A stretch of DNA of 64,000 nucleotides from positions 1-64,000 of the forward strand of contig JAPJBO010000608.1 of assembly GCA_030068145.1 (NCBI GenBank). The letters are read 5' to 3'. The translations under genes were made by a program, and so were the position numbers. The notes beneath the pieces are model-generated. The model had not been told where the DNA came from. It ran no database searches and worked only from the letters and a program-made list of their open reading frames with translations. Origin of the DNA: Diplonema papillatum (taxonomy: Eukaryota > Euglenozoa > Diplonemea > Diplonemida > Diplonemidae). Positions 2,540-57,995 of the stretch are shown here, piece after piece (positions within the stretch are counted from its first letter, which is position 1; each line of letters begins with the position of its first letter).

Positions 2540-2837
2540 CTATCCGCTAGCTAGGTTACGTCCGGAGTCGAAACCCATCGAACACTGATCGGGCGATCTC
2601 GTGATTAAAGTTCCAGACACCAAAGCCAGGTGGTGGTACGCACCGCGATGCCTGGTTCGATTCGACTGCAGATCCGCCACCTGTGAAAACAACATATGAG
2701 AAGGACGTGACGTATGTAATCAGTTGTTAGAGCGAACAATTGGTTGTCGCCTTGAGAGGTGTTCTCAGCCTTCTGGGCCTGACACGTGAGTTGAAGAATT
2801 GTGAAAACGGGTTGCACACAAAACGGAATGTGCACAC

Positions 2838-3200
2838 CTTCATGCCTTCCACGGCGATGTTGCAGGCGCCAGGGGTCTGGCCCTCACCGTACACGCCGAT
2901 GACCAAGCACTGTGTGCTTCTGGCGATGCACAGTCCAGACGGTCCCTTCTTGCCGTAGAAGAGGCCTTCGTCGCCAACCATTCTCAGGCAGAAGTACTTC
3001 TCACCGCCGAGAACGCATCCGTTGTCCTGGAAGTACTTGCCGGACACTTCGCCCATGCCGCCTGCGATGGCAGTAGCCTCCTCCTGGGTGAGGTTGCACC
3101 CGGCGTCCTTGGCCCAGATCGACCCATCAATGCCGAGCAGTGCCGCGTGTGTCACGTTGCCGGACTGGAGAAGGTTGTCGACGTACGAGTCCCAAGACAT
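2838..3200 (-). CDS. PFN: Profilin, first coding exon (121 residues)
   Basis: Profilin binds actin monomers, helps exchange their nucleotide and delivers them to proline-rich filament nucleators in the cytoplasm. The ATG at 3200 begins MSWDSYVDNLL: Trp3, Tyr6 and Trp29 (GSIWA) occupy the conserved poly-proline-binding positions. The strand pattern continues through IAGGMGEVSGKYF, GCVLGGEKYF, GKKGPSGLCIARST, the core LVIGVYGEGQTPG and NIAVEGMK. At residue 121 the frame meets a good phase-0 donor (AAG then GTGTGC) and the 51 residues beyond it do not look like profilin, so the C-terminal helix should be in a second exon. One candidate begins after TTTTCACAG at 2680 and reads VADLQSN, but it continues about 46 residues to a stop, longer than usual, so I leave it unannotated. 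Full profilins are about 125-140 residues. Confidence 0.9.
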
Positions 3201-3363
3201 TTTCGCTTTTTTCTTTGCTTTTTTTTTGTGTGGGATTCCTATTAGGCTGGTCTTCGGAACTGAATTGCGCGCGAACCAATTGGCTCGCGAGTACTTACAA
3301 TTGCCCTATCACACCGGAGAACAGCCGCCACTTGCCATCGGTGCACTGCCGACCCTTTTTCGG

Positions 3364-14220: not shown

Positions 14221-17200
14221 TCAAGCTCTCGAAGAGAGCTCCAGCTCCGTTTCTTCCATCATCGAGGTGAACGAGGGTCGCTGCGCTCTTTGAGACGCCT
14301 TGGATATCACCAGCCCAGCTCCAAGCACGGTCAGGGACCCAGCCAAGCAAACCACCCCCCACAGTAAAACCATCGCGACGAAGTCGTCATCGTTGTCTTC
14401 TGCACCACCACCAACATCATCAACACCCACGAATGCTACTGCGCGAGCCACCTCGCAGGAAGCCTCCCAAGCGTTGTATGGCGTGTCCACGAGGTGCGGC
14501 TGGCTCGCCACAAGCCCGAACCCCGCGTAAAACGCGTAAACTTGCACCACGGAAGTGCCAACCGGCGGCGAAAACGACAGGAGAACCGCCGCGCCGCCTT
14601 CTGGCGGGTCGTTCCACCCCGTCAGGGCGACCACAGCTCCGTTCTGGTCGACCGCGTAAAGGGCTCCCAACCATTCGACCGGCGAGTCGCCCATAGCATC
14701 CTCGGACAGCATTGGCACAGCGGCGGGGGCTGAGGCGTTGACGCTCAACGTGCCATCGGCGTTGGTGTAGCTCACCAAGCGCACAGCAGGCAGTTCCGAA
14801 GACGTGTCACCGGCGGAGGAGCTGTCGCCGTCGGGTCCCGAAGTTGAGTTGTGCACAGTGGCTGCGTGTGCCATCATCTGCGCCCGCATGTTCGACAATC
14901 TCGTACAAGGCTTGGTCCCACCGCAAGAAACGAAGCCGCATACCACGTCTCCTGCATCAGCAGCAGGCGTTACGACGGTCGACGTTTTCTGGAAGTGCAA
15001 ACCACCGGTAGTGTGCAAAAAGTACGCTACCACGCTCGTCGCCTGCTTCGGAAGCTGAAACGTGAATTCGGGCACTATCTTCTGCCAGGTGTACTTCCCC
15101 GCCCCGATGATGGTGCCGGTCTGGTCTTCGACGTACATGGCCTCGAGGAACTGCGGCCCGACTTGCGTCCCATTCCACATGGTGATGGGGAAGTCGGCGG
15201 AAGGGATCCACCGGACAGTGACAGACCCGTTCGCGGTTTCAACGCTAAGGTAAGGGTTGGCATCTGCAACGGGATCGGGAAACCGCCTCAGTGCGTCGGC
15301 GCGCAGAACGTCAAACTGGATGCAGCTGCCGTCTGCGGAGGGTAACCCCGTGTCGACGTGGCAGCCTGAAAGCCGGCATTCCACCACACCGCCTGAGGCA
15401 GGTGCCGCCTTCGTGAGGTTGAAAGGAATGCTTCCAAAGAGTCCGTGGACGTTGCAGAAGGCAAACGCGGTCATTTGCGTGGTCCCCGCTGGGATGCGGA
15501 AGGAGAGGAGCGGCGCCTCGGTCGTGGCGCTCAACTCCGTCATAGCGATGATCCTCTCGTCTTGGTCCTCAACGTAGATAGTAGAGATGAAATGAACGGT
15601 CGCAGGATCTGCCGAAGCGACCTGCGGATGGGGAGCGGAAGGCGTCCCCACAGTCACCGCCGCCATGGTTTCGTTGTCCGACGTTTCGATACGCGGCGTG
15701 TGTTTCGGACTGACGTTCGGTCGAAACGGATCGGGCGTGTTGTAGTGATTGAGTTGTTGCATACGGATTTCAGACGCACGCAGGGCGAAGGCAAAGCAGT
15801 GGAGCAACTGTGGCCGGGAAGCGCAGGCGCTAACCCCACATGTGTGCGTGACCCCGCGGGTACGCGAGGTGTCGACCGTGATGTTCGGTAGGGCGATCAG
15901 TCCCTCCGTTGTGCTCAGGAATTGAACCGACAGTTCGGCGGTGTCCTCCACGATCGAGAACGAAAGCACGTTCGGAAACCCTCCGTAGGCGGCGTAAGAC
16001 GCGCCGCCGATGACTACCCCGGCCGCGTCGAACACGAGCACGTACCGAACATCGCTGGTTACCGGCTGCGGCGACGCGAAAATCCCCCCGCTCTGCCCGT
16101 CTGCGGCTGCGGGGGCGCCGCTTCCGTCGGCGGCGCCGATCTTCACGACGAATTTCGTGCCCATCTGCCGCATGGTGTACGCGTACTTGCTCCCCGCGCT
16201 CCACGGACCGACCGACTTGTCCAGCTGCTTCGCCCAAAGGCGCGCGTCTCCGTGGATGGCTGCGAATTGGATGCAATACGGCTCGGGACCGTATTTCGGC
16301 GAAAAAAAGATTTCACCGGGCTCGACCAGGCAACTTTTTTTGTCGAGCATCCTTGAGGCGACCGCAGTGAACGTGCGGTCCATTACGAACGGGTCTCCCC
16401 GGAGCAATCCTTGGTTGTTGTACATCAAGAAAGCCGTCAAAGTCGTGGTCCCTGCTGGGACCTCAAATTCGAACGCGTCATCGTAGTACGTTGTTCCGGT
16501 AAACATCGCCATCGCGATCACGGTCGAATCCTGGTTCTCCACAAAGACGTGCGTGATGTACCTCACATCCGACGGATCTGGGCGGCCGTTCCAATAGTCT
16601 AGGTCGTCCCCGGAGACAACCACCCTCGTAGCAGTCTTCCACCCGACATACGGCGCCTCGAAGGTGTAGTTGCTCGCAGTCGGTGGGAACGGCTCCACGA
16701 CGCCGGTTATCAACTTATGGCGGGAGATCACGACCGATTTCTCGTTTTCGAACAGCGGGCAACTCTGCGCCCCCTTTGCCATCGATCCGCACGCAGAGAC
16801 GCCGCACATCCGGGGCGACTCGAAGGGGGTCAAACTGCTGGCGCGGCCGTCCACCGACAGGTTTGAGCTTGCGAACAGCCCGTGCTGGTTGCACAGCGCG
16901 AACGCGGTCAAGTGCGTGACGCCGGTAGGGATCGTGAAACCGAGAACCGCAGGCTCCACATCGACCACTGTCAACTGACCTGCGGCGACGACACGCCCCA
17001 GCTGGTCTTCGACGTAGATCAGTTCAATAAAGTGGAGAAGCGTGGGGTCCATTGAGAATGTAGTTGGGTGCGTAGGGTCGGACGGATCCCCCGACACCGT
17101 CCCCAAGCCTACGGTTACCTTGCCGGTGCTCGAATCCGCGTCGAGTGTGATAAACGGGGTGTGCTTCGCGTTGGAGTCAGAAGGCGGAAAAGCTGAAGTC

Positions 17201-18714
17201 GTGCTGAAGCTCGACTCCTGCCTGCGCAACGCCTCTGCCTTCAAAACGCTGAATTGCGCGCACTGGTGGTCGGAGTCCAGCCCCAACTCGTTTGAAGAAC
17301 ACACATTTAGCTCGCAAAACGATGGGGCATCCCTGTGATAGTACGGGGAAACAGCCGATTCCCCTTGGAAAAGCCCGTGTTTGTTGCACAACGCGAAAGG
17401 TGTGAGCGACGAGACGCTTTGAGAGACCTTGAAGCGCAAGCTCGGAGGTCCAGCCGACGTGGCGGTGAATTCCGCCATTGCGACGACAGTGTCGCTTTCG
17501 TCATCGACCACGTAGATACTCGCGATGTAGTGCACCTCTCCCGGATCCTCACTTGCTACTGTCGGATGCCCAGCCCCGAGCCCTACAGTGACCAGGGCGA
17601 ACCCGCTATCGAACTTCTGCACTGGGAGGTGTAGTGTATCTCCGCTGCTGGGTAAAAACGGGTCAACCTGGTTCACCTCCGCGCGGTGGTGTCGCAAAGC
17701 ATCAACCCTCCTTGCCTCCAACAGTTTGCACCTTGCTGGCTGACGACGTCTTCCACACACTCTAACACCACAGGGATCGAGGAGCCTTGAACGCATTTCC
17801 TCCGGAATCGTGACACGCGGTAGGCTGTGCAGTCCGATCTTGCTGTCAAAGAAAAAGGCTTCAAGGTACTCAGAATCCCTGGGAATATAAAACGAGTATT
17901 CCAGCCACTTCTCGTTGGGGTCGTAAGCGGTGGGGGTGTACGCGGCGACAACCCGAGCTTGGTTCTTAACGTAAATCATCTTGACGGTGAAGAAGTCATT
18001 CACAGCTTGCGACGGGAAGGGGAAACGAGCAACCTGCCTCTCTGCGTCGATTACGATGTTGGCGACTCCGGTATCGGTGGTATTGGCGGACGATGCACCG
18101 GTCAGCTGCTTGTGCAGGATGAGTGCATCCGTCTCCACAAGCTGGCTCTGCAGGCAATTTCCTTGGTCATCAAACCCTACATCATCGGGAAAGCACGGGG
18201 TCAGACACCGGCCATCGTCGTCTGCCACACCCACTGTGCTAGGGACAGGCGTCGAGTTGCTCGCGAAATACCCGTGCACGTTACAGAGTGCGTACCCTGT
18301 AAGAGCTGTAGTTGTTCCATTCAGCGAGACCTCAAGCCGCGGCGTTGCCTGGGTGGCCAGGAAGGTCGCCACGCCTAGAATCTTATCGTTTTGGTCTGTC
18401 ACCCACAATTTCGATATGTAGTGCAGCTCCGCCGGGTCGGTGCTGGCGACGTTGGGGTGGACAGGGCCGTTTGGGTGGCCTGGCACCGTTCCGAGACCGA
18501 CGGTTACTACGGCTTTGCCGTTCTCAAACCAGACGTGCGGTGTATGCACGTCGGTTGCATCAGGAGGAAACGGGTCGTCCGAAGATGGTGTTATTAGTAG
18601 CTGCTGGCGTCTCGCCTCAGCGAGCTCGTTGTTGAACTGGGCGTCGCAATCTGTCGCTGCTGTTGACGCGACGCACGCTCCCAACAACAACAACTGCCTC
18701 CAGGCGACGCTCAT
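14221..18714 (-). CDS. Secreted, membrane-anchored protein with nine tandem superoxide-reductase-like domains
   Basis: This 1497-residue single-exon protein has a signal peptide (1-20, MSVAWRQLLLLGACVASTAA), nine modules of about 150 residues, a membrane segment (about 1446-1470) and a 27-residue tail. The modules match the iron domain of desulfoferrodoxin/superoxide reductase, which reduces superoxide at an Fe held by four His and one Cys. Module 1 has His57 (HTP), His86 (HP), His98 (LHYI), Cys144 and His147 (CNVHG). Module 3 has His362, 383, 395, Cys443 and His446. Module 4 has His518, 549, 561, Cys608 and His611. Module 7 has His1005, 1029, 1041, Cys1087 and His1090. Modules 2, 5, 6, 8 and 9 keep the fold words (IYVEDQ-like strand) but have lost the ligands. 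The second and third His are 12 apart against 6 in bacterial enzymes, an even insertion. Lys precedes the first His only in modules 4 and 7. CxxxC...C linkers separate the modules. Catalysis is inferred. Confidence 0.85.
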   Translation of the reverse strand: MSVAWRQLLLLGACVASTAATDCDAQFNNELAEARRQQLLITPSSDDPFPPDATDVHTPHVWFENGKAVVTVGLGTVPGHPNGPVHPNVASTDPAELHYISKLWVTDQNDKILGVATFLATQATPRLEVSLNGTTTALTGYALCNVHGYFASNSTPVPSTVGVADDDGRCLTPCFPDDVGFDDQGNCLQSQLVETDALILHKQLTGASSANTTDTGVANIVIDAERQVARFPFPSQAVNDFFTVKMIYVKNQARVVAAYTPTAYDPNEKWLEYSFYIPRDSEYLEAFFFDSKIGLHSLPRVTIPEEMRSRLLDPCGVRVCGRRRQPARCKLLEARRVDALRHHRAEVNQVDPFLPSSGDTLHLPVQKFDSGFALVTVGLGAGHPTVASEDPGEVHYIASIYVVDDESDTVVAMAEFTATSAGPPSLRFKVSQSVSSLTPFALCNKHGLFQGESAVSPYYHRDAPSFCELNVCSSNELGLDSDHQCAQFSVLKAEALRRQESSFSTTSAFPPSDSNAKHTPFITLDADSSTGKVTVGLGTVSGDPSDPTHPTTFSMDPTLLHFIELIYVEDQLGRVVAAGQLTVVDVEPAVLGFTIPTGVTHLTAFALCNQHGLFASSNLSVDGRASSLTPFESPRMCGVSACGSMAKGAQSCPLFENEKSVVISRHKLITGVVEPFPPTASNYTFEAPYVGWKTATRVVVSGDDLDYWNGRPDPSDVRYITHVFVENQDSTVIAMAMFTGTTYYDDAFEFEVPAGTTTLTAFLMYNNQGLLRGDPFVMDRTFTAVASRMLDKKSCLVEPGEIFFSPKYGPEPYCIQFAAIHGDARLWAKQLDKSVGPWSAGSKYAYTMRQMGTKFVVKIGAADGSGAPAAADGQSGGIFASPQPVTSDVRYVLVFDAAGVVIGGASYAAYGGFPNVLSFSIVEDTAELSVQFLSTTEGLIALPNITVDTSRTRGVTHTCGVSACASRPQLLHCFAFALRASEIRMQQLNHYNTPDPFRPNVSPKHTPRIETSDNETMAAVTVGTPSAPHPQVASADPATVHFISTIYVEDQDERIIAMTELSATTEAPLLSFRIPAGTTQMTAFAFCNVHGLFGSIPFNLTKAAPASGGVVECRLSGCHVDTGLPSADGSCIQFDVLRADALRRFPDPVADANPYLSVETANGSVTVRWIPSADFPITMWNGTQVGPQFLEAMYVEDQTGTIIGAGKYTWQKIVPEFTFQLPKQATSVVAYFLHTTGGLHFQKTSTVVTPAADAGDVVCGFVSCGGTKPCTRLSNMRAQMMAHAATVHNSTSGPDGDSSSAGDTSSELPAVRLVSYTNADGTLSVNASAPAAVPMLSEDAMGDSPVEWLGALYAVDQNGAVVALTGWNDPPEGGAAVLLSFSPPVGTSVVQVYAFYAGFGLVASQPHLVDTPYNAWEASCEVARAVAFVGVDDVGGGAEDNDDDFVAMVLLWGVVCLAGSLTVLGAGLVISKASQRAQRPSFTSMMEETELELSSRA

Positions 18715-22966: not shown

Positions 22967-25900
22967 TCGAGTTTTCCGTAGTTCTTCCGTAGTTCCATCA
23001 TGGTTTCACTGTACTATATGGATCACACCAGCTATAGCGTTATTTGTGGATTAGAAGGTTATTAAGTTATAGTTCGCTTGAGAATGCGGGATTGCAGAGT
23101 CTCCAGGTGACCTTCGTCGAATGGGCTCTTTTAAAGCTAAAAACGTACTGCTATCTACCAGCTATGATTGCTGCCTGTTACTTGACTTTTCTGCATCCTT
23201 GAGAGCTACTTTTCTTACACATAACTGCAGTGTCTCTTTTGACACCATGGTCTGTGATATCGTAAGCTTCTTAACGGCGGTTCGTCCGTCATCCAGCGTT
23301 CCTCGTGATGATGGTTTTTTAGCCCTTCAGAACGATCGTTTGCCTCTGATTCGTCGTTCGTTTCGCAGCAGTTCCGAAACTGGCGAGTGCAATGGGACCG
23401 ACAATAGGGGAGTACAACCAAGATCTGCACGCAACCACGCTCCATCGAGGCTCACGCCAGCGACTTCGCGGCGTGGGCCACACACTCCGACGCACGCCTG
23501 GCTTTGTGATACCAGTACGCGGCCAACTATGGGTGGATCGCTTGAGCATCATCCATTTTCGGGACCGGAGCATTCGGCAAATGGGTTGTTACACACTCAT
23601 TATCGGATGCCGACTTCCATGGCCACCGGCCTGCTGAACCGACACGGGTACCTGGCTCACCCACTAACTTGCTAACTGTTGTCTCGAATGGCGTCCCCCT
23701 CGTCCCAGGTGCATCGGTGAGCAATGGCTCGCAGAAATCTATCCTGAGGGAAACTTCGGAGTGAACCAGCTACTAGATGGTTCGATGGGTCTTTCGCCCC
23801 TATACCCAGCTTTGACGAGCGATTTGCACGTCGACACCGCAACGGACCTCCACCAGGGCTTGGTCCTATCCAGGCATAGTTCACCATCTTTCGGGTCCCA
23901 ACAAGTGTACTTAACCTCAAATCCCTTTCCAGTAAATCAGGATCGGCTGTGCTGCGTCCTCAAGGAGTGGCACATCTCCCTTTCAGTGCGGCTTGTGAAG
24001 GAGAAAGGCTGGGAGCACCTCGGATCGATAGCAAAGAAAGGGATAGACGTTTTGCTTGCACCGTGGATGCAAGTTGGATCGGTCGGAGCAAAGAGGCGCA
24101 AGGCACAGGACATCGGCGGCATCGCAGAGCAGTTGGCTGCAGTCAATATCTTGAGTCATTGAGTTTTCTTTTAGATGTGAGGAGCCGCCTGCAGGAGTTG
24201 CTCAAATTATGAACGTCAAAACGTTCAACTTTAAATCGATCGTAGGGCTCGCATCTGATCCAAATCCTTGGCATAGTAGCAAGGATTGTTCTAACTGGCT
24301 GGCACGACAGTATTTTCCATGACAGCAAGGTGCAGCTTCATTCAAATCCTTCCCAAAAATCGTATAAAAGTGAGCCGTTTTGTTCGCACCACCCCACAGC
24401 TCGTCCTTGGAGATCAAGGAGTAGACCAATGGGCCTTGAGAAGCCTGTCTTCGGCGCCGTCACCCCCCCGCGCGCCCCTCCATACTAGTGGTCTTTCCGG
24501 GCCAGGGATACTGTGAGGGGCATTGCTCGGATAGTCACTACAGTAGACTTGCGATCTGGAGATGACGGCGGAGATGCGAAACCATTCGGTGCGGTTGTAC
24601 CCCCGCCGATGATGCGGAATCACGATGCTCAACTCAGCAGCAGAGAGGGTCATACAGGCCACAGCACAGATAGGACGTAGCGACGGGAATCATGCTCTGA
24701 AACTTTCCCGCGGTCTGTGGGTTGAGGACTTGCAGAACGCAGCTGCGTCGCAAAGGGAAGGGCGGCCGCACCACGCGTGGCCATCGATCCGGAGATGAAG
24801 CGTGTCTTTTCAGCCCAAAACTACAGCCAGGGACATCGTCTTCATTTCAGATACAGTATGGATGCAAGAAGGGGCACCACTCCAGATGCGGTAAAGGCCT
24901 GCCCAGTCCAAAGATACAGGGGGCATCACCAGTCGATTTCAGATGCAGTAAGGCGTCGTCACTTCAGATACTGCAAGGACCCTCCCCAGTCTGGATACGT
25001 GTGTCGCACTCGGTGCGACCGGCCCATCCAGATAAGTATCACTTTTGTAGCCGCACCTCGGCGCGCATCGCTCGGGTCAAGACGAGAATGCGGGAAGGTC
25101 GGCTGAGGCAAGATCCGATGACCCCCGCGAGAGATTCAGCCAAAAGAATACCTGCCAAACTCGTCCAGCATTCCGGAAGTCCCCGAGGATTCGAGCAACG
25201 AGGAAACACAACTTGCTCGTGGTCACGTTCCGCAGAGCACCGGTCCAGGCTTGGGCACTGCAGGCTCTTCCTGAAGTGAAGCGCAGGTTGTGCCGTGTGA
25301 ATGCCGGACGGGGGAGAATCTTACTTTCGTGTTCAGGCGAAGTTTTCCTCTCGTGTATGTTTAGGGGTAGGGGTAAGGCGAACCGTGTAAAAGCTTTTGC
25401 TTCTTCCCAGCTCGCCAATGCGCTCCATCTGGCTCTGCCGCTCTCATCCAGTTACGCATGCCACTGTCACAGGCTGGCCGCTCTGTAGGAGAAACACCGT
25501 CCCGAACGCGGGCGAAGGTTCGACCAAAAAGCCCTGGTGGACCCGCGGCCGTCAGTCGTCTTTTTGCTTCGCCGTACGTTGCACGAAGAGGCCCCGAACG
25601 AACGTCAACGCTGCCAGAACGAGACGGTACTGCGGTTTTGGTGCTTTTTTTGTGCGGTCGACGAATGCGTGAGTTACTCATGGCACATCGGATCTATCGG
25701 GCCACGACTAGCTTCGGCGAACGGCAACTTCCAAATTCACATCCAGATCCCGTGTCTCCAACCGGGTCTATACGAGTCCGAATGGACCGGCGGGCGTAAC
25801 GCACTGAGGAGCCTTGCTGTTCCGAGGGTTTGAGCCTTATGGCCGGTTCCTACGGTTATCTGGTTCGGCTCCACTCGAAAGAGTGGTTTGGAACAGGAGA

Positions 25901-34350: not shown

Positions 34351-34665
34351 ATGTACTCCCCCCCTGAACCCATAATCTTTGATTTCTCGTTCGGGGAGCG
34401 CCGTGGGAGCCAAAATGACTTCCCTCGATCCCGAGACGGCATCGTTTGCAGCAGTGGAGTATCTGATCATCTTGGATCCCCACGCTCTCGAATGAAGACA
34501 TTCTTGTCGAATGCTTTCGCAGAAGTTCGTCTTCCTACGATCTAAGAATTTCACCTCTGTCTTAGGAGTACGTACGACCCCGGCAGTCCCTATTGATCCC
34601 GCGCAACGAGGCCTTAGACGAAACTCAAAAGAGAACCGCTAGTCCGTTGGATTGGTAGTGTGTGC
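34308..34665 (-). rRNA. Diverged fragment of 18S (SSU) rRNA
   Basis: Read on the minus strand it contains several universal small-subunit rRNA words in the right order: ATCAATAGGGACTGCCGGGG, CAGAGGTGAAATTCTTAGAT, AAGACGAACTTCTGCGAAAG, GATCAGATAC, AAACGATGCCG, TCATTTTGGCTCC, GAGAAATCAAAG, and CGCAAGGCTGAAACTTAAAG followed by GAATTGACGGAA. Intervening positions differ from usual eukaryotic 18S, and similarity stops abruptly at about 34308 just past the CACC after GACGGAA. About 350 bp of an ~1.8-kb gene is present, so this is a pseudogene fragment or a divergent rDNA variant, not a working gene. Confidence 0.9.
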
Positions 34666-36140
34666 TACCTCCGTTCTTTTACACGTTCGTTGGTGTCTCT
34701 ACTCACTACTGTAGTACTCTTTCACTCTTTTACTCTCTTTGGCTAGCCAGAAAAGACTCCTGCGACCGACACCACGAACACATTACGGAGGGGGGAAAAT
34801 CTTAGTTTAATGTCTAGGCAGAGCGCTGCCTCTGATGCTAGCATCAAGTCTTCTTCGAGGAAGATGTTGTCGAGGAAAAAAATAGAAAGAGGTAAAAAAG
34901 GGGCGTGTACGGCTCCCAAAGTGGTTATGAAACCTTGAGGGACTAGCCCCCTGTGTTTTTTTCACCGCGGTGGTGTGTGCACGTCGTTCTTCGTCTCCGG
35001 TTTCGCTCTTGAACGCAGGAAAAATCTTAGTTTAGCTTGTAACCAACCGCCACGGGGCACCACTTTCAAGAGGAGGGAGGCTGTCCCGCGCGCAGAAAGC
35101 CTCCTGGGGAATCTGTGGTCGAGAATTTTTACAACCCCAAAATGGGAAGTCTGGTGCTTCTCGGAAAGGTTTCGTACATGGAATACATCTGTTCACAGCA
35201 GCAAACATTGATCATTTGTGGCGTGTCTCTGCGCTGGATGCCCACAGTGTCCGGACTCCAGCTCGGGTTCACTTTGTCGACGATCAATTTACTGCAGCAT
35301 GGTAATGCAGAATAAGGCGGATTGGGGACAGCCGGAACGGATCGGGGCTGTGGGTGCAACCTCGCGTTGTAGGATCCGGCGTGGAAGCCTTGTAAAAATT
35401 GAAGACGGCCAACAACCCGAACGACAGGTTTTCCGCTCCGACTGTCCAGAGAAAAGAAAGTAGCTTGCTTTCACAACAAACTCGAAACTCGAAAAAGAAC
35501 GCTGGCGGAGCCTGGCGACCGTCCTCTCCCCCGGCACGTGCAAACGAACACCGCGTCTATTCTTTTGTGCCGGGATGTTCAGGGGATACGTTTGGAGTGT
35601 TTTAAAGCCCTCTTCCCGGGGTTCCCACGTGATACACTGGTTTTAGTGGTAGCCTGCACAAGACAGTGTAGGACAACCCGCAACATTGTTAAGACGAAGA
35701 AAGTTAAAGTACGGTTAAAAACGTAGTGCAGCGGTGTCACCTGAGGGGGGGGAATCTCAGGGCCGCCCACGTTATCAAGCCGTTGAGCACTGGGAACCTT
35801 TAAGTACATGGACCACATGGATCAGCATGCACTTTCTCACGGGCTGGGTTGAAGGGGAGGGTCGAATAATAACAGTTACTTGACACACGTCTGGTTGTCT
35901 AAAAACACTACCACTATTTGATCTTGCTACTGTTCGGCTACTCGGAACTTGTATTATTATTCGACAAATCGAATAGTAACACAGTGTTATTATTCGACCC
36001 CCCCCCTTTACTTGTAACGTCATCATCGCCTGCATTTGCGTCACCAAGATCGAGTACTTGTGGTGTAAACGGGGCTACGGTTAGGTGATCTGGCGGGTCT
36101 GATTCAATGTCTGAGTCCAAGAGCGAGCAGGCACGCTCGT
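34666..36140. other. Gene-poor region
   Basis: Holds the second copy of the 34132-34200 repeat (35500-35580) and the AAGTACATGGACCACATGGA word shared with 1300. The 36140-36260 stretch may hold the 3' untranslated end of the La-motif gene. Confidence 0.45.
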
Positions 36141-36261: not shown

Positions 36262-39200
36262 CTACTGTGTGGAAAGAGCGGTGTTGGTCGCTCTCTCTCT
36301 TTCTGTGCAGGTTATAAAAAGAAGCGATACCACTTGCAGGTGGAGCGGCAACGGCAGTTTCCTCTGGATCCACTCCCGCGACGAGCTGTCCATCCACAGC
36401 TGCACGACGTCGCTTCGCGAGAGGGCGCTCCGGATGCGGGCTTCGGGGATGGCTTTCAGGCTCGGTGCGGACAGAAGGTGGTTGAACGGGAACAGGCCGG
36501 TTTCCGTCTGCTTCCCCAGCCAGAACTTGTCGTACGGAAGGTTCGCGTCGGAGAAGTAGTACTGGAGCCTGTCGATGAGGTCCCGGTCGTCGTCCAGGTT
36601 GGGGGGCGGCTTCTTCTTCTCGGGCGACCCCGCACCAGCGTCTGAGGGCAGCTGGGATATGGGTCCTCCCGAAGCCTGCTGCGCCGCGCTGAACGATGGT
36701 TGACCTGAAGTCGAGGGCACGGTTTGGTTGGGCGAACCGCCTTGGCCCGGTGCGGGTTGAAGACCGGACGGGACTCCCTGTCCAAACGCCGACACGGGAA
36801 CTGGGGCAGTGAAGGATTGCTGGGGATTGCCTGTGCGGGCAGCTGGCTGCGGTTCGACCTGGCCAGCTGTGGTCGGCTGGTGCGCATACTGATACCCAGG
36901 AGCACCCTGTGAGCTGGTTGGTCCGGGCGTTGGTGCGGTGGCATGGGAAGGCGGGGTAGCCGGGTGTGACGCAGGTTGAGTAGTAGGGTACGCTGCCGAT
37001 GCCAGCTGCTGTTGCTGTGATTGTTGCTGAGCATAATGATACCCGGGAGCTCCCGAGCCGTTTGGTGCTGACGTTGGTGCGGTGGCATTGGAAGGCGGTT
37101 GGCCGGTGTGGGTGGGATGTGACGCAGGTTGAGTAGTAGGGTACGCTGCCGATGCCGGCTGCTGTTGCTGTGATTGTTGCTGAGCATAATGATACCCGGG
37201 AGCTCCCGAGCCGTTTGGTGCTGACGTTGGTGCGGTGGCATTGGAAGGCGCTTGGCCGGTGTGGGTGGCCGGATTTGACGCAGGTTGAGTAGTAGGGTAC
37301 GCTGCCGATGCTGGCTGTTGTGGTTGCGGCTGTTGCTGTGCATACGGATACCCAGGAGCTCCCGAGCCGTTTGGAGGTGACGTTGGTACGGTGGCATTGA
37401 AAGGCGACTGGCTGGTGTGGGTAACCGGATGTGTCTCAGGTGGGAACGCTGGTGCTGGCTGCTGTTGGTGTGCATATTGATACCCAAGAGCACCCTGCGG
37501 GCCCGTTGGTACTGACGTGGGTGCGGCGGGGGTAAGCGAATGTGTCTCAGGCTGGTACGCCGGTGCTGGCTGCTGTGGGTTCGCATAATGATAACCAGGA
37601 GCTCCCGAGCTGTTTGGTGTTGACGTTGGTGCGGTGGTGTGGGTAACCGGATGTGCTTCCGGTTGAACAGCAGGGTACGCTGGTGCCGTTTGCTGCTGGT
37701 TGTGCGCTTGTTGGTGCGCATAAGGATACGCAGAAGCCCCCTGCGAGCCGGTTGGCGTTGACGGTGGTGCAGATACATTAGAAGACAGCTGGTTGTGGGT
37801 ACCCAGGCGCGGTTCGGGTCGGTTAGTTGGGTACGCTGGTGCTGGCTGCTGTGGTTGTGGCTGTTGGTGTGCATGATGGTACCCAGGGCCCACCTGCGAA
37901 TCTGCAGCCCACGTAGGAACCGGGGTATTCGAAGACGGTGGGCCACTTTGATGGGGTTCCCGGGCAGTGTAAGCGGGCTGCCCTGGCTGCTGTGAGCGCT
38001 GCGCCTGGCTGCCGGGATACTGGGGCCCCTCCGTCGGCGCCAACGTGCCTTCGGACTGGTTTCGCGGCGGAGGTTGGGAAAACGGCTGCGGCGGCGTCTG
38101 CCGCGACGGGTCTGCGTGGCCCTCGGGCTGGTCGCGCTGCGGCTGGTGGAGCTGCTCCGGGTACGAAGCGCCGTGCGGTGCGGGCCGGGCGGGGTATTGA
38201 TTCTGCGCGCCGTACTGGTTCACGCATCGAGCTTGCCCATCCGGCATAGGTGGCGAAGCTTGGCGCGCAGGCTGCGATGCGGAGGGGTAGGACGATGGCG
38301 GGGCATGCCCAGGCTGGAGTGAAGACTGGCTGTCCACTGGAGCGTGATGCGGTGGCTGCGTCGATGAAAACGGGTACTGCTGACCAGTGCCAGCATACCC
38401 CTGTGCTCGGTCCAGAAGCGGTTGACTGCCATACGGCACGGGCACTGAGTAGCCCTGGGGGTCCAGAGGCTGGGGCCGTCCTTCGGATGCGGGGTACTCG
38501 CGGGGACCTTCGGGCGAATGCTGCTCGGTGTACGGCGGGGCGCCGGCGCGGGCAGGCTGCGCCTGCGGTTGACCGTATACCGGTTCCCTCGCGCCGCTCG
38601 CGTGGTATCCGGCGGGGTTCTGGTACTGCGGTTGATCGTGTCCGGGATACAGCGGCGCTGGAGGAGTAGACGAGACAGTGTGGGCAGGTTGCGCCTCTCC
38701 TTTTGCACCACTAGGGTAACTGTGGGGTACGTGGTACTGCGGCTGATCGTGTGCGGGATACAGCGGCGCTGGAGGAGGGGACGAGACAGTGTGGGCAGGC
38801 TGCGCCTCTCCTCTCCCACTAGGATAACTGTGAGGTACGTGGTATTGCTGTTGATCGTGTGCGGGATACAGCGGCGCTGGAGGAGTAGACGAGACAGTGG
38901 GGGCAGGCTGCGCCTCTCCTCTCGCACCACTAGGGTAGCTGTGGGGTACGTGGTACTGCGGCTGACCGTGTGCGGGATACAGCGGCGGTGGAGGAGTGGA
39001 GGAGACGGGGTGGTCGGGTCTGGAGGTCGCCCACTCACGGAAGGCCGCATTCGCCTCCGGGCCATCTTGCGGCGCGGGCCGCGCCGCGGCCGACTGGTGC
39101 GATTCGACCGAAGGCCGCCGGTGCAACGGCAGCGGGCCGTGGTCGCTGCCCCCGTCCGAAGCGCGATCCCTCTGCTTTTCGGGGGCACGCGCCTGCTGCT

Positions 39201-39477
39201 GGGGGTGCGGTTGGTACGCCGGCGCCGCGGCACCGGACGCGTCACTGGCAGGGTGGCGGGGCTGAGAATAGGGCGGATCCTGCCGCTGTAGCTGCTGCTG
39301 CTGCTGGTGGTGATACACCGACGACGCCGCACCGGACGGGTCACTGCCGGGGTTGCGGGGCTGGGGATAAGGTGGATCCTGCTGCTGTTTCGGCTGCTGT
39401 TGATACATCGGAGACGCGGCGGCACCGGACGCGTCACTGGCAGGGTTGCGGGGTTGAGAATAGGGAAGATCCTGCCG

Positions 39478-39513
<36 letters not shown>

Positions 39514-41289
39514 ATACAACGACGCCGCGGCACCGGACGCGTCACTGCCGGGGTTGCGGGGCTGGGGATAAGGCGGATCCTGCCGCTGTTGCGCCTGCTG
39601 TTGATACATCGGCGCCGCGGCACCGGACGCGTCACTGGCAGGGTTGCGGGGCTGGGGATAAGGCGAATCCTGCCGCTGTTGCGCCTGCTGTTGATACATC
39701 GGCGACGCGGCACCGGACGCGTCACTGGCAGGGTTGCGGGGCTGGGAATAGGGCGGATCCTGCCGCTGTTGCGCCTGCTGTTGATACATCGGCGACGCGG
39801 CACCGGACGCGTCACTGCCGGGGTTGCGGGGCTGGGGATATGGCGGACGCTGTTGCGCCTGCTGTTGATACATCGGCGACGCGGCACCGGACGCATCACT
39901 GGCAGGGTTGCGGGGCTGGGAACAGGGCGGATCCTGCCGCTGCTGCGGCTGCTGCTGATACACTGGCGACGCAGCACCGGACGCGTCACTGCCAGGGCGG
40001 CGGGGCTGGGGATAAGGCGGATCCTGCCGCTGTTGCGCCTGATGTTGATACATCGGCGACGCGGCACCAGACGCATCACTGGCAGGGTTGCGGGGCTGGG
40101 AATAGGGCGGATCCTGCCGCTGCTGCTGATACACCGGCGCCGCGGCACCGGACGCGTCACTGCCAGGGCGGCGGGGCTGGGGATAAGGCGTATCCTGCCG
40201 CTCTTGCGGCTGCTGCTGTTGATGATGCGGCTGACTCGGGGTGTGCGGCAAGTAGCTTCCGCTGGCGGAGTACGTGTACGGCTGCGCGGAACTGGCCGAA
40301 CGCTGGTCGGCATAGGGTTGAGGTTGCGGTTGCACCGGGGCGTAGCCATAGGCCGGAGCCGGCGCTGGTGAGGCGGACTGGCTGTAGTGGGGCCTGGGCG
40401 GCGGTTGGGAGTCGTCGAGCGGTCGATACGTCCGCTCCTGCGGGTACAGCGCGCCGCCGTCGTCCGAACGGTGGGGCGCGTGCTGCGAACTCTGGGGCCA
40501 CGGGACGCCCGGCGGGCCGGTCCGGGGATCCGGAGCCGCCGCCGGGGGGTGCTGCTGCTGCGCGGGGCTGGAGGATGCATTGCTGCCGGGAGCAGAGGGG
40601 TGCGACACCGCCGCACTCGGCGGCTGCGGGTGCGGAGCGTAGGCAGACGGCCCAGCCGCCTGGGCCGGCCCGTGAGGTGGCGGCACCTGCCCGTCCCTAT
40701 CCCCTGGCACCCCACTACCACTCGAACCTCCCGACGCAACCGGCGCGGGGCCCCTGGGTATCCCCGCCTGGGACGAAGGCTGCGAAGGCCTTGGGTGGGC
40801 AGGACCCTGCCAGTAGTCCGCCGAGGGTCGGTTGGCTACCGGCTGATTCCCGTACGCGTACTGCGCGGGCGCCGGTTGACGGGGGTTCGGCGGGAAAGCA
40901 GACGGCTGGGCGCTGTACCCGCCCTGCGGCGCGGCCTCACGACCCAGGACGGCCGGGTGCTGTTGATGCTGATAGCTCGCATAATTCGAGGGTCCAGCCC
41001 CTCCGGGCTGAGCGCCGAAGGCTTGCTGCGCAGGCTGGGGGTACGCCTGGGCTGGGCTCGGCCCCGTGGCCGCGGGGTACAACCCCTGGCCGCTGCCCCC
41101 GGCGCCGCCCCCCGGCCGCGGCGGCACCGGCGACGGCGACACCGAAGCGAAGTCCCGCGGGGTTGCCACGCTGCCGTAGCTTTCCGGGGGCAGGTTCGAC
41201 GAGTACGACTCCTGCCGCGCGTACCCTTGCCCCGGCGGCGCCGCCGGCGCGTACGGGTAGGCCTGCGGAGGGGGCGCCGTGTGATACAT
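36262..41289 (-). CDS. La-motif (LARP) RNA-binding protein with a long Pro/Gln-rich repetitive N-terminus
   Basis: Starting at the ATG at 41289 (MYHTAPPPQAYPYAPAAPPG), the frame encodes 1675 residues. Residues 1-1550 are Pro, Gln, Ser, Ala, Tyr and Gly-rich, with three repeat blocks: about 365-690, eleven units built on PQPRNPASDASGAASPMYQQ; about 763-883, four units built on STPPAPLYPAHDQPQYHVPH; and about 1140-1470, units built on APTSAPNGSGAPGYHYAQQQ. At 1566-1652 is a clear La motif: LIDRLQYYFSDANLPYDKFW, FNHLLSAPSLKAI, LSRSDVVQLW, WIQRKLPLP. La motifs bind RNA 3' ends or 5' TOP/cap-proximal sequences. A C-terminal motif without RRM recalls yeast Sro9/Slf1 and LARP1-type proteins. The last 23 residues may be intron read-through, since CAA-GTGGTA could be a donor. 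A cytoplasmic mRNA-binding, granule-forming role is inferred. Confidence 0.85.
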
Positions 41290-41319
41290 TCCTTAACCCC
41301 GCCCGCTTCGGGAAGAGGG

Positions 41320-44812: not shown

Positions 44813-44960
44813 TTTGTTGAACGCTTACGCCCGCCACTAAACCCAGATTTACCTGTGTTTCGTGTGGGCTACAGCACATTTACCTCCTTTGATCTTTCGC
44901 AACTTTGGCCGTCTCCTCAAGCATTTCCTACGAAGCAGGTGCTTATACAAAATAAAAGGT
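44813..44960 (+). repeat. Dispersed repeat family A, second copy in the intron
   Basis: Tandem to the previous copy, separated by about 120 bp that includes CAGTACGCTGCCAACT, a word also found at 41949 (inverted) and 56946. Confidence 0.9.
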
Positions 44961-44981
44961 TTTGATGAGGAGGGTCGGCAC

Positions 44982-46161
44982 CTAGTGAAAGGAAGCTCGC
45001 GAGCTCCTCCTCGGTGGTCAGCAACAGGACCGGGTCTTCGTCGGACGACATCAGTTGGAAGTAGTGCGGCGAGAGCCCGTTGGCGAGGATGACGGTGACG
45101 TGGATGGTCTGGTAGCCGCTGGTCTCAACCGGCACGCACCGGTCCTCGTCGTCGGTAACGGACACGCCGGCCCGGTCGAGCGGAGCCGCGATGACGACCG
45201 CGTCGACGGCAACCGACTTCGTGACTTCCTTCTCCGCGGGTGGATCACCCGACTTGTCTCGCGGTTCGACGCTTCTGAATACCCTGTACGTCACTTCGAC
45301 CGGCTTGCCTCCAGCGTCGCTGGGCAAGACCGCTGTGACGGTGGCTCGGGGCATGACGTTTGCGGAGGTCACATTCAGCAGCTGTTCGACGAGGTGCCCG
45401 TTGCCTCGGGCCGCGCTGACCATGGTCTCGGACGCTGTTTTGAACGCGAGGATGCCCGCCAGGGCGTTCACATCGACGATCCCCTGCCCGTAGTTGCACC
45501 GAACGACGGACTCGATCACCTCGTCCAGGAACGCCGCCGTCAGCCCCGCGGTCCGCATGACGTGGCGGAGGGGCGTCTGCGCCATCTCGTAGAGGTCGAG
45601 ACTCCTCAAAAGGTGCTCGTGCTGCTCCCAAGCCCCGGCGCCCAGCGCCTCGTAGGCGCCGCGGAATCGCTCGTGGGTTCCGGCGACGAGCGTCTGGGAG
45701 TGCACGGGGGACCACCCGTAGCGCCAGAGCATAGACGCGACCATGCTGTATGACCCCGACGACTTCTTGAAAACGACTTCCTTGCCGTTCCACACACCGT
45801 ACGCCGCCGTGTTAAGGCCTCGGGCGGCGTGGGGGTCCTCGGTGAGGACGCCGGCCTTCGCGCAGAGCTCGTTCATTAACGTGTGCCCGCTGTGCCACGC
45901 GGCGGCGCCGACGTCGACGCTGACGTTTGGCAGGTACGGCGCCGTGCGCAGCGCCCCGCCGACCTCGGGCTCCCGCTCGAACACGAGGATCGACGCGCCC
46001 GGATACGCGTCCCGCAGGTACGCCGCCGAGGCCGCCCCCGTCAAGCCGCCGCCCACGACCGCGACGGTCATCCCCTCGCCATCCTCGGCCGCCCCCCAAG
46101 CTGCCGCGAGGCCCGCGGACAACACGCACGCCGACAGGCGGGTGAGAACCCGGTGCTGCAT
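44982..46161 (-). CDS. PCYOX1: Prenylcysteine oxidase, N-terminal exon
   Basis: Prenylcysteine oxidase is a lysosomal or secretory FAD enzyme that cleaves the thioether of farnesyl- or geranylgeranyl-cysteine, yielding cysteine, a prenyl aldehyde and hydrogen peroxide during turnover of prenylated proteins. The true ATG at 46161 (MQHRVLTRLSACVLSAGLAA) gives a signal peptide of about 25 residues. The dinucleotide fold follows (VAVVGGGLTGAASAAYL, 33-49) with the FAD-ribose acid in LVFERE (59-64) and EVGGALRT. Family landmarks are VDVGAAAWHSGH, the conserved NYGQG (223-227), GNGHLVEQLL, and HVTVILANGLSPHYFQL. Protein similarity ends at ELASFLSL (about 392), where CTAG-GTGCCG offers a donor. The other half of the enzyme is at 43157-43890, so the two exons form one gene of about 640 residues. 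Confidence 0.88.
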
Positions 46162-46174
46162 GCGTGGACCACCA

Positions 46175-46375
46175 CCCGGCAACCTCAGGGTCCTCTGCAG
46201 GCTACTTCCTTGCAGGTCGTTCTCCCACTTCAAGGCCTCTAAGGGCCAGTCTCTGATCGATGGGCCTTCAAGCCGAGCCTTCCACCTGAGGGTCCTCTAA
46301 AAGCTACTCCTTTGAGTCGTTCTCGCGACTTGAAGGCCTCTAAGGGCCAGTCTCAGGTTGCTGGGACTGGGTCCT
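46175..46375. repeat. ~115-bp direct duplication in the 5' region of the oxidase gene
   Basis: Two copies of the CTCAGGGTCCTCT... CAAGGCCTCTAAGGGCCAGTCTC block start at about 46181 and 46291, immediately upstream of the start codon. Confidence 0.85.

Positions 46376-56995: not shown

Positions 56996-57995
<1,000 letters not shown>

Follow-up and report, generated by a model that had tools for sequence, protein, structure and literature searches.

A nine-module superoxide reductase-like protein with a predicted membrane anchor in Diplonema papillatum, and its large paralogues

Layout and family assignment of protein A

The 64,000-nucleotide stretch of the Diplonema papillatum genome considered here (contig JAPJBO010000608.1 of GenBank assembly GCA_030068145.1, positions 1 to 64,000, hereafter the window) contains at 14221-18714, on the minus strand, a single uninterrupted open reading frame of 1497 amino acids from ATG to stop. 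Its product, protein A, consists of a hydrophobic N-terminus, nine tandem modules resembling superoxide reductase (SOR), one C-terminal membrane helix and a short tail, which confirms the overall plan put forward in an initial annotation made from the letters alone. The minus-strand frame around the gene is open over 1504 codons and the plus-strand frames listed inside 14221-18714 reach at most 183 amino acids; together with the Pfam match described below (E 7e-25), this rules out a chance frame. Bacterial contamination was also rejected, because the window holds a spliced leader and eukaryotic rRNA fragments, and paralogues in the same assembly carry a euglenozoan-like cyclase.

The modules are units of 129-153 amino acids across residues 23-1420, delimited from the cysteine positions and an alignment; their edges were set at cysteines by choice, and the presence of a cysteine at both ends of all nine follows from that choice. 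All the features that follow are on the minus strand. Four modules have a complete set of putative iron ligands: module 1 (residues 23-170, 18205-18648; H57 H86 H98 C144 H147), recognized from the alignment and its ligand columns; modules 3 (residues 329-467, 17314-17730; H362 H383 H395 C443 H446) and 4 (residues 485-637, 16804-17262; H518 H549 H561 C608 H611), from the alignment and from their own single-module Pfam scores; and module 7 (residues 973-1113, 15376-15798; H1005 H1029 H1041 C1087 H1090), which gives the best Pfam match and a predicted SOR fold. Modules 2 (residues 187-315, 17770-18156), 5 (residues 652-795, 16330-16761), 6 (residues 814-959, 15838-16275), 8 (residues 1131-1259, 14938-15324) and 9 (residues 1270-1420, 14455-14907) keep no ligand at the aligned columns. 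The proposed signal peptide (about residues 1-21, 18652-18714) is plausible by eye, with a hydrophobic core and small residues before C23, but this N-terminus lies below the threshold of the hydropathy scan. A Kyte-Doolittle scan finds one segment above threshold, residues 1443-1473, with a hydropathy of 2.36 over 19 residues. The helix is placed at about residues 1445-1470 (14305-14382), followed by a tail of about residues 1471-1497 (14224-14304) that is probably cytoplasmic.

PF01880 (desulfoferrodoxin/superoxide reductase) matches protein A in four stretches with E = 7.2e-25 and 87.8 bits, the Pfam cut-off being 22.2 bits; the only other Pfam match is a sub-threshold one to SoxZ. When the modules are scored singly, three of the nine pass (module 7 with 40.6 bits, module 4 with 27.2 and module 3 with 24.0), module 1 falls below the cut-off at 18.7, and modules 2, 5, 6, 8 and 9 give no PF01880 match. 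These last five are recognized by the alignment and by a hidden Markov model (HMM) whose own seed was the nine modules of A, and module 8 also by a structure model. The nine tandem units of the initial annotation are confirmed. AlphaFold models of module 7 and of the ligand-less module 8 both have SOR structures as their top matches, and so are predicted to form the SOR beta-sandwich rather than another fold; since the module 8 model was made from the same nine-row alignment as that of module 7, its SOR match is not independent. A profile made from 10 of the 11 complete-site modules counted below gave 10 PDB matches at E <= 0.01, all of them SOR or putative SOR entries. In the best of these alignments, to Archaeoglobus fulgidus, the third histidine is not opposite a histidine of the target; in the T. 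pallidum alignment it is. Sequence and predicted structure together support the SOR-like interpretation.

A SoxZ origin was considered and rejected, the match being weaker by sequence (12.6 bits, cut-off 25) and, for module 7, by structure. SoxYZ thiosulfate-carrier structures are mixed with the SORs for module 8, where SoxYZ rows lie among them at ranks 8 and 10 of the VIA list. To our knowledge SoxYZ has no site of four histidines and one cysteine (His4-Cys).

Ligand retention over four related proteins

The genome holds three large paralogues of protein A, called B, C and D and described in the next section. An HMM built from the nine modules of A and iterated over all four proteins recognizes 20 modules in B, 9 in A and 8 each in C and D, a total of 45, all at E <= 4.7e-15. 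The next row is a chance one (E 2.1), and the module counts that follow refer to these 45. By sequence, the His4-Cys set appears in 4 of the 9 modules of protein A and in 11 of the 45 (A1, A3, A4, A7, B1, B3, B12, B20, C5, C7 and D7), one ligand of B3 having been assigned by hand. The initial annotation had described four modules with the five-ligand signature in order and with near-family spacing. The first part stands, with modules 1, 3, 4 and 7 carrying all five, and the second holds for the order of the ligands but not for one interval, the gap between the second and third histidines being 12 in all four modules and 6 in the aligned T. pallidum SOR.

Retention of the ligands is close to all or none: five are kept in 11 modules, none in 28, one in 4, two in 1 and three in 1. 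In 20,000 column shuffles, which ignore the relatedness of the modules, at most 2 modules had all five ligands, compared with the 11 observed. A cysteine lies near the N edge in 39 of the 45 modules and near the C edge in all 45, at edges that were partly chosen there.

This pattern bears on the possibility that protein A serves chiefly as a rod of Ig-like modules, for adhesion or as a spacer, its four sites being relics. Such a rod would fit the lack of a complete site in 34 of the 45 modules, and Ig-like and FN3 chains come after the SORs in the structure lists of modules 7 and 8. However, drift would leave many partial sites, and the sites are mostly whole or wholly lost, with 6 modules in between, even in paralogues that match A with only 26-41% identity; we consider relic sites on a rod very improbable.

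Paralogues, haem domains and cyclases

The assembly comprises 2910 contigs and 271,365,524 bases. PF01880 has four matches in it, spread over three contigs and including the one in the window, and protein A used as the query has 29. Paralogue B, on the minus strand of contig C141, has 3460 amino acids from the chosen ATG and joins 20 modules to a cytochrome b561 (32.6 bits). Paralogue C, on the plus strand of contig C357, has 2191 amino acids and consists of a hydrophobic N-terminus, 8 modules, a DOMON-like domain, a b561-like domain, a cytochrome b5 (67.4 bits) and a class III cyclase (79.3 bits). Paralogue D, on contig C861, has 8 modules in one frame, and a downstream frame holds a ninth (45 bits) and, by eye, a hydrophobic stretch; should both frames belong to a single gene as exons, D would share the plan of protein A. 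The matches to protein A in C357, C141 and C861:79770-83459 are only 26-41% identical to it. Fragments of the protein A gene itself, 294-425 bp long and with 75-99% DNA identity, also lie at C470:157321, C861:4040, C658:104632 and C731:37477, and the C470 fragment includes the membrane helix.

The DOMON and b561 domains of paralogue C were called because this block is 39% identical over 510 amino acids to a protein on contig C3 whose b561 passes its threshold (26.8 bits), and four histidines are invariant across the four b561 parts compared. The membrane part of C resembles CYBDOM proteins, which combine DOMON with cytochrome b561; paralogue B shares the b561 alone and protein A has no CYBDOM parts, while the SOR array, cytochrome b5 and cyclase of C are extras. 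The closest solved structures to its cyclase are those of the trypanosome receptor-type adenylate cyclases GRESAG 4.3 and 4.1 (1fx2/1fx4; E 5.5e-23), and it keeps the FTDI, GDAF and N..AAR motifs, which have catalytic roles in cyclases. The trypanosome receptors differ from C in the ectodomain and in the multi-haem membrane part; protein A has no cyclase. Frames with a cyclase akin to that of C form a large family in the genome, with 77 matches (76 of 241 candidates scored); on contig C21 many of these lie near one another.

Other proteins place different units ahead of b561 and cytochrome b5. On contig C1600 (L047) this position is taken by a peroxidase (86.6 bits), with a sub-threshold PA14 match, and on contigs C3 (L048) and C15 (L050) by a series of DOMON-like units recognized by eye. 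In C15 a single DOMON reaches its cut-off, with 39.7 bits, and the b561, with 17.5, does not. Against a 571-residue query made of the membrane, b5 and cyclase parts of C, the matches of all three stop at residue 348-369, short of the cyclase of C, and the ends of these proteins are cyclase-like by eye only. Among the four b561-b5 proteins compared, a clear cyclase is found only in the SOR-bearing protein C.

The replacement of the SOR array by a peroxidase in C1600 points to reactive-oxygen chemistry, and in known SORs the His4-Cys centre is tight and serves redox chemistry, not metal exchange. Both points count against a role in iron handling, in which the modules would hold surface iron and the b561 and DOMON paralogues would act as ferric reductases for its uptake. 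An Arabidopsis DOMON-b561 (CYBDOM) protein does promote ascorbate-dependent iron reduction (PMC10784552), and iron handling nevertheless strikes us as distinctly unlikely.

Proposed role of the arrays

Known SORs are small, soluble proteins, mostly from anaerobic microbes and as a rule with one such centre per chain; a ferrous His4-Cys centre carries out the reduction of superoxide, for which an electron donor is needed. Protein A resembles SOR and neelaredoxin (PF01880, TIGR00332; Nanoarchaeum equitans 6gq8, A. fulgidus 4bff, Giardia 4d7p) in its predicted fold, its His4-Cys ligands and its CNxHG-type motif, and module 7 has the Pro-Lys-His start of the N. equitans protein. It differs from them in being a nine-module, membrane-anchored chain rather than a single small unit.

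The reading we favor, and regard as evenly balanced between right and wrong, is that protein A is the ectodomain SOR array of a redox-receptor family, with four sites that reduce superoxide and five modules that serve as spacers. It would be a membrane protein of type I, with its nine SOR-fold (Ig-like) modules forming a rod on the outer side; judging from the cysteine pattern, a disulfide between the first and last cysteines probably closes each module. Modules 1, 3, 4 and 7 would each bind one iron through four histidines and one cysteine and, in the extracellular space or inside a food vacuole, would reduce superoxide to hydrogen peroxide; the other five would have lost the metal site and kept the fold. 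Outside reductants or b561 proteins nearby might supply the electrons that re-reduce the iron. The b561 haems could themselves be the donor in paralogues B and C; for protein A the donor would be outside or another protein. That two paralogues carry SOR arrays on b561, one of them with DOMON, b5 and cyclase as well, suggests that the whole family may couple extracellular superoxide chemistry to transmembrane electron flow and, in one member, to cyclic-nucleotide signalling.

Several points weigh against this proposal. Protein A misses the cut-off of NCBIfam TIGR00332 (desulfoferrodoxin ferrous iron-binding domain) by 0.4 bits (61.5 vs 61.9) and so is not assigned to that family. The Pfam scan finds no redox partner domain in it, b561 being fused in paralogues B and C, and with its single membrane segment it has neither DOMON plus b561 nor a cyclase of its own. 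In paralogue C both DOMON (18.5 bits, cut-off 32.7) and b561 (12.8 bits, cut-off 23) are sub-threshold. An extracellular site would also need to load and retain Fe(II). Finally, the residue before the first histidine is the catalytic lysine of SORs, and only 3 of the 11 complete modules (A4, A7 and C5) have lysine there; two positions before that histidine, glutamate is found in one (B20) and aspartate in three (A1, C5 and C7). The four complete sites of protein A thus have the lysine in two cases (modules 4 and 7) and the glutamate in none, falling short of the conserved pair expected of the enzyme, and we do not class protein A as a proven SOR enzyme. A paper on SOR reportedly concerns Glu47 and Lys48, and the neelaredoxin of N. 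equitans is said to lack the conserved glutamate and still reduce superoxide, so that glutamate would not be strictly essential. From their sequences, C5 (Asp-Lys-His) and A4 and A7 (Lys-His) look the most enzyme-like modules.

Since the lysine and glutamate are mostly lost in the complete modules, catalysis may be slow, or the modules may act in sensing. In the latter case superoxide or peroxide would be bound by the iron sites, or react with them, solely to trigger a change of conformation or redox state, and protein A would be an accessory or decoy subunit of paralogue C. The joining of eight modules in C to a motif-retaining cyclase related to GRESAG 4.3 and 4.1 and the many further cyclase matches in the genome are consistent with this; protein A, on the other hand, has no signalling tail of its own, and we think such a sensor or co-receptor role unlikely. 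Beyond the scavenging array favored above, we tentatively suggest, as somewhat less likely than not, a diplonemid class of redox receptors, in which DOMON-b561-b5 haems would connect extracellular SOR arrays, peroxidases or DOMON repeats, across the plasma membrane, with a cyclase of class III or a domain resembling one, with electron flow to superoxide or peroxide as the signal and protein A as a tail-less scavenger or co-receptor.

The fold, the DOMON-b561 module and the receptor cyclases are already known; what would be new, judging from the literature matches listed, are SOR modules in tandem arrays, the anchoring of such arrays in the membrane and their joining to a cyclase and a haem chain. 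The SORGOdb paper (PMC3116461) distinguishes seven architecture classes, among which are forms with a Tat signal, fusions with other domains and an 'atypical' class; neither a tandem SOR array nor a membrane anchor is described in its architecture section. Among the open-licence literature matches listed there was nothing on SOR arrays, SOR in diplonemids, anchored SOR or SOR-haem-cyclase fusions, and earlier annotation is possible. The D. papillatum genome paper (PMC10161547) reports expanded oxidative-stress families, two of them acquired from bacteria; 'superoxide' does not occur in its main text, and the protein A family may still figure in its supplements. Protein-library searches returned protein A itself or nothing, two of them having scored only about 8,000 candidates that share most words; because paralogue C, of suitable length, was also not returned, the library apparently lacks this organism's proteins and these negatives are weak. 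Pattern scans with module A1 confirmed 0 of 26 matches in genome contigs and 0 of 24 in viral contigs, and a phage tblastn gave no match, both weak negatives; 13 plasmid matches were taken as chance (E about 0.5, identity under 60%). If the proposal is right, arrays of 8-20 SOR-like modules, probably outside a eukaryotic cell, two of them joined to b561 and one of these to a cyclase as well, would represent a new means of dealing with superoxide or detecting it.

As for the rest of the window, an exact 35-base spliced leader, which we take to be that of Diplonema, lies at 1242-1276 on the minus strand and is followed by GCTGC, not GT, and then by a polyglutamine-rich frame that runs to the left end of the window. 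It looks like part of a retrocopied trans-spliced mRNA or a retroelement, not an SL RNA gene. PMC3795323 gives the same leader, in a 39-base form, under the name 'Euglenozoa 14'. Fragments of eukaryotic LSU and SSU rRNA lie apart from each other at 23418-24023 and 34368-34860 on the minus strand (307.5 and 108.2 bits), and 56996-57995 is a run of (AGT) x333 with a 100% match. The minus strand also encodes a profilin (2727-3305, 117.5 bits), a prenylcysteine lyase (44917-46296, 124.6 bits) and, at 36262-41292, a long frame rich in repeats, in which a La domain scores below threshold (25.9 bits, cut-off 37.1).
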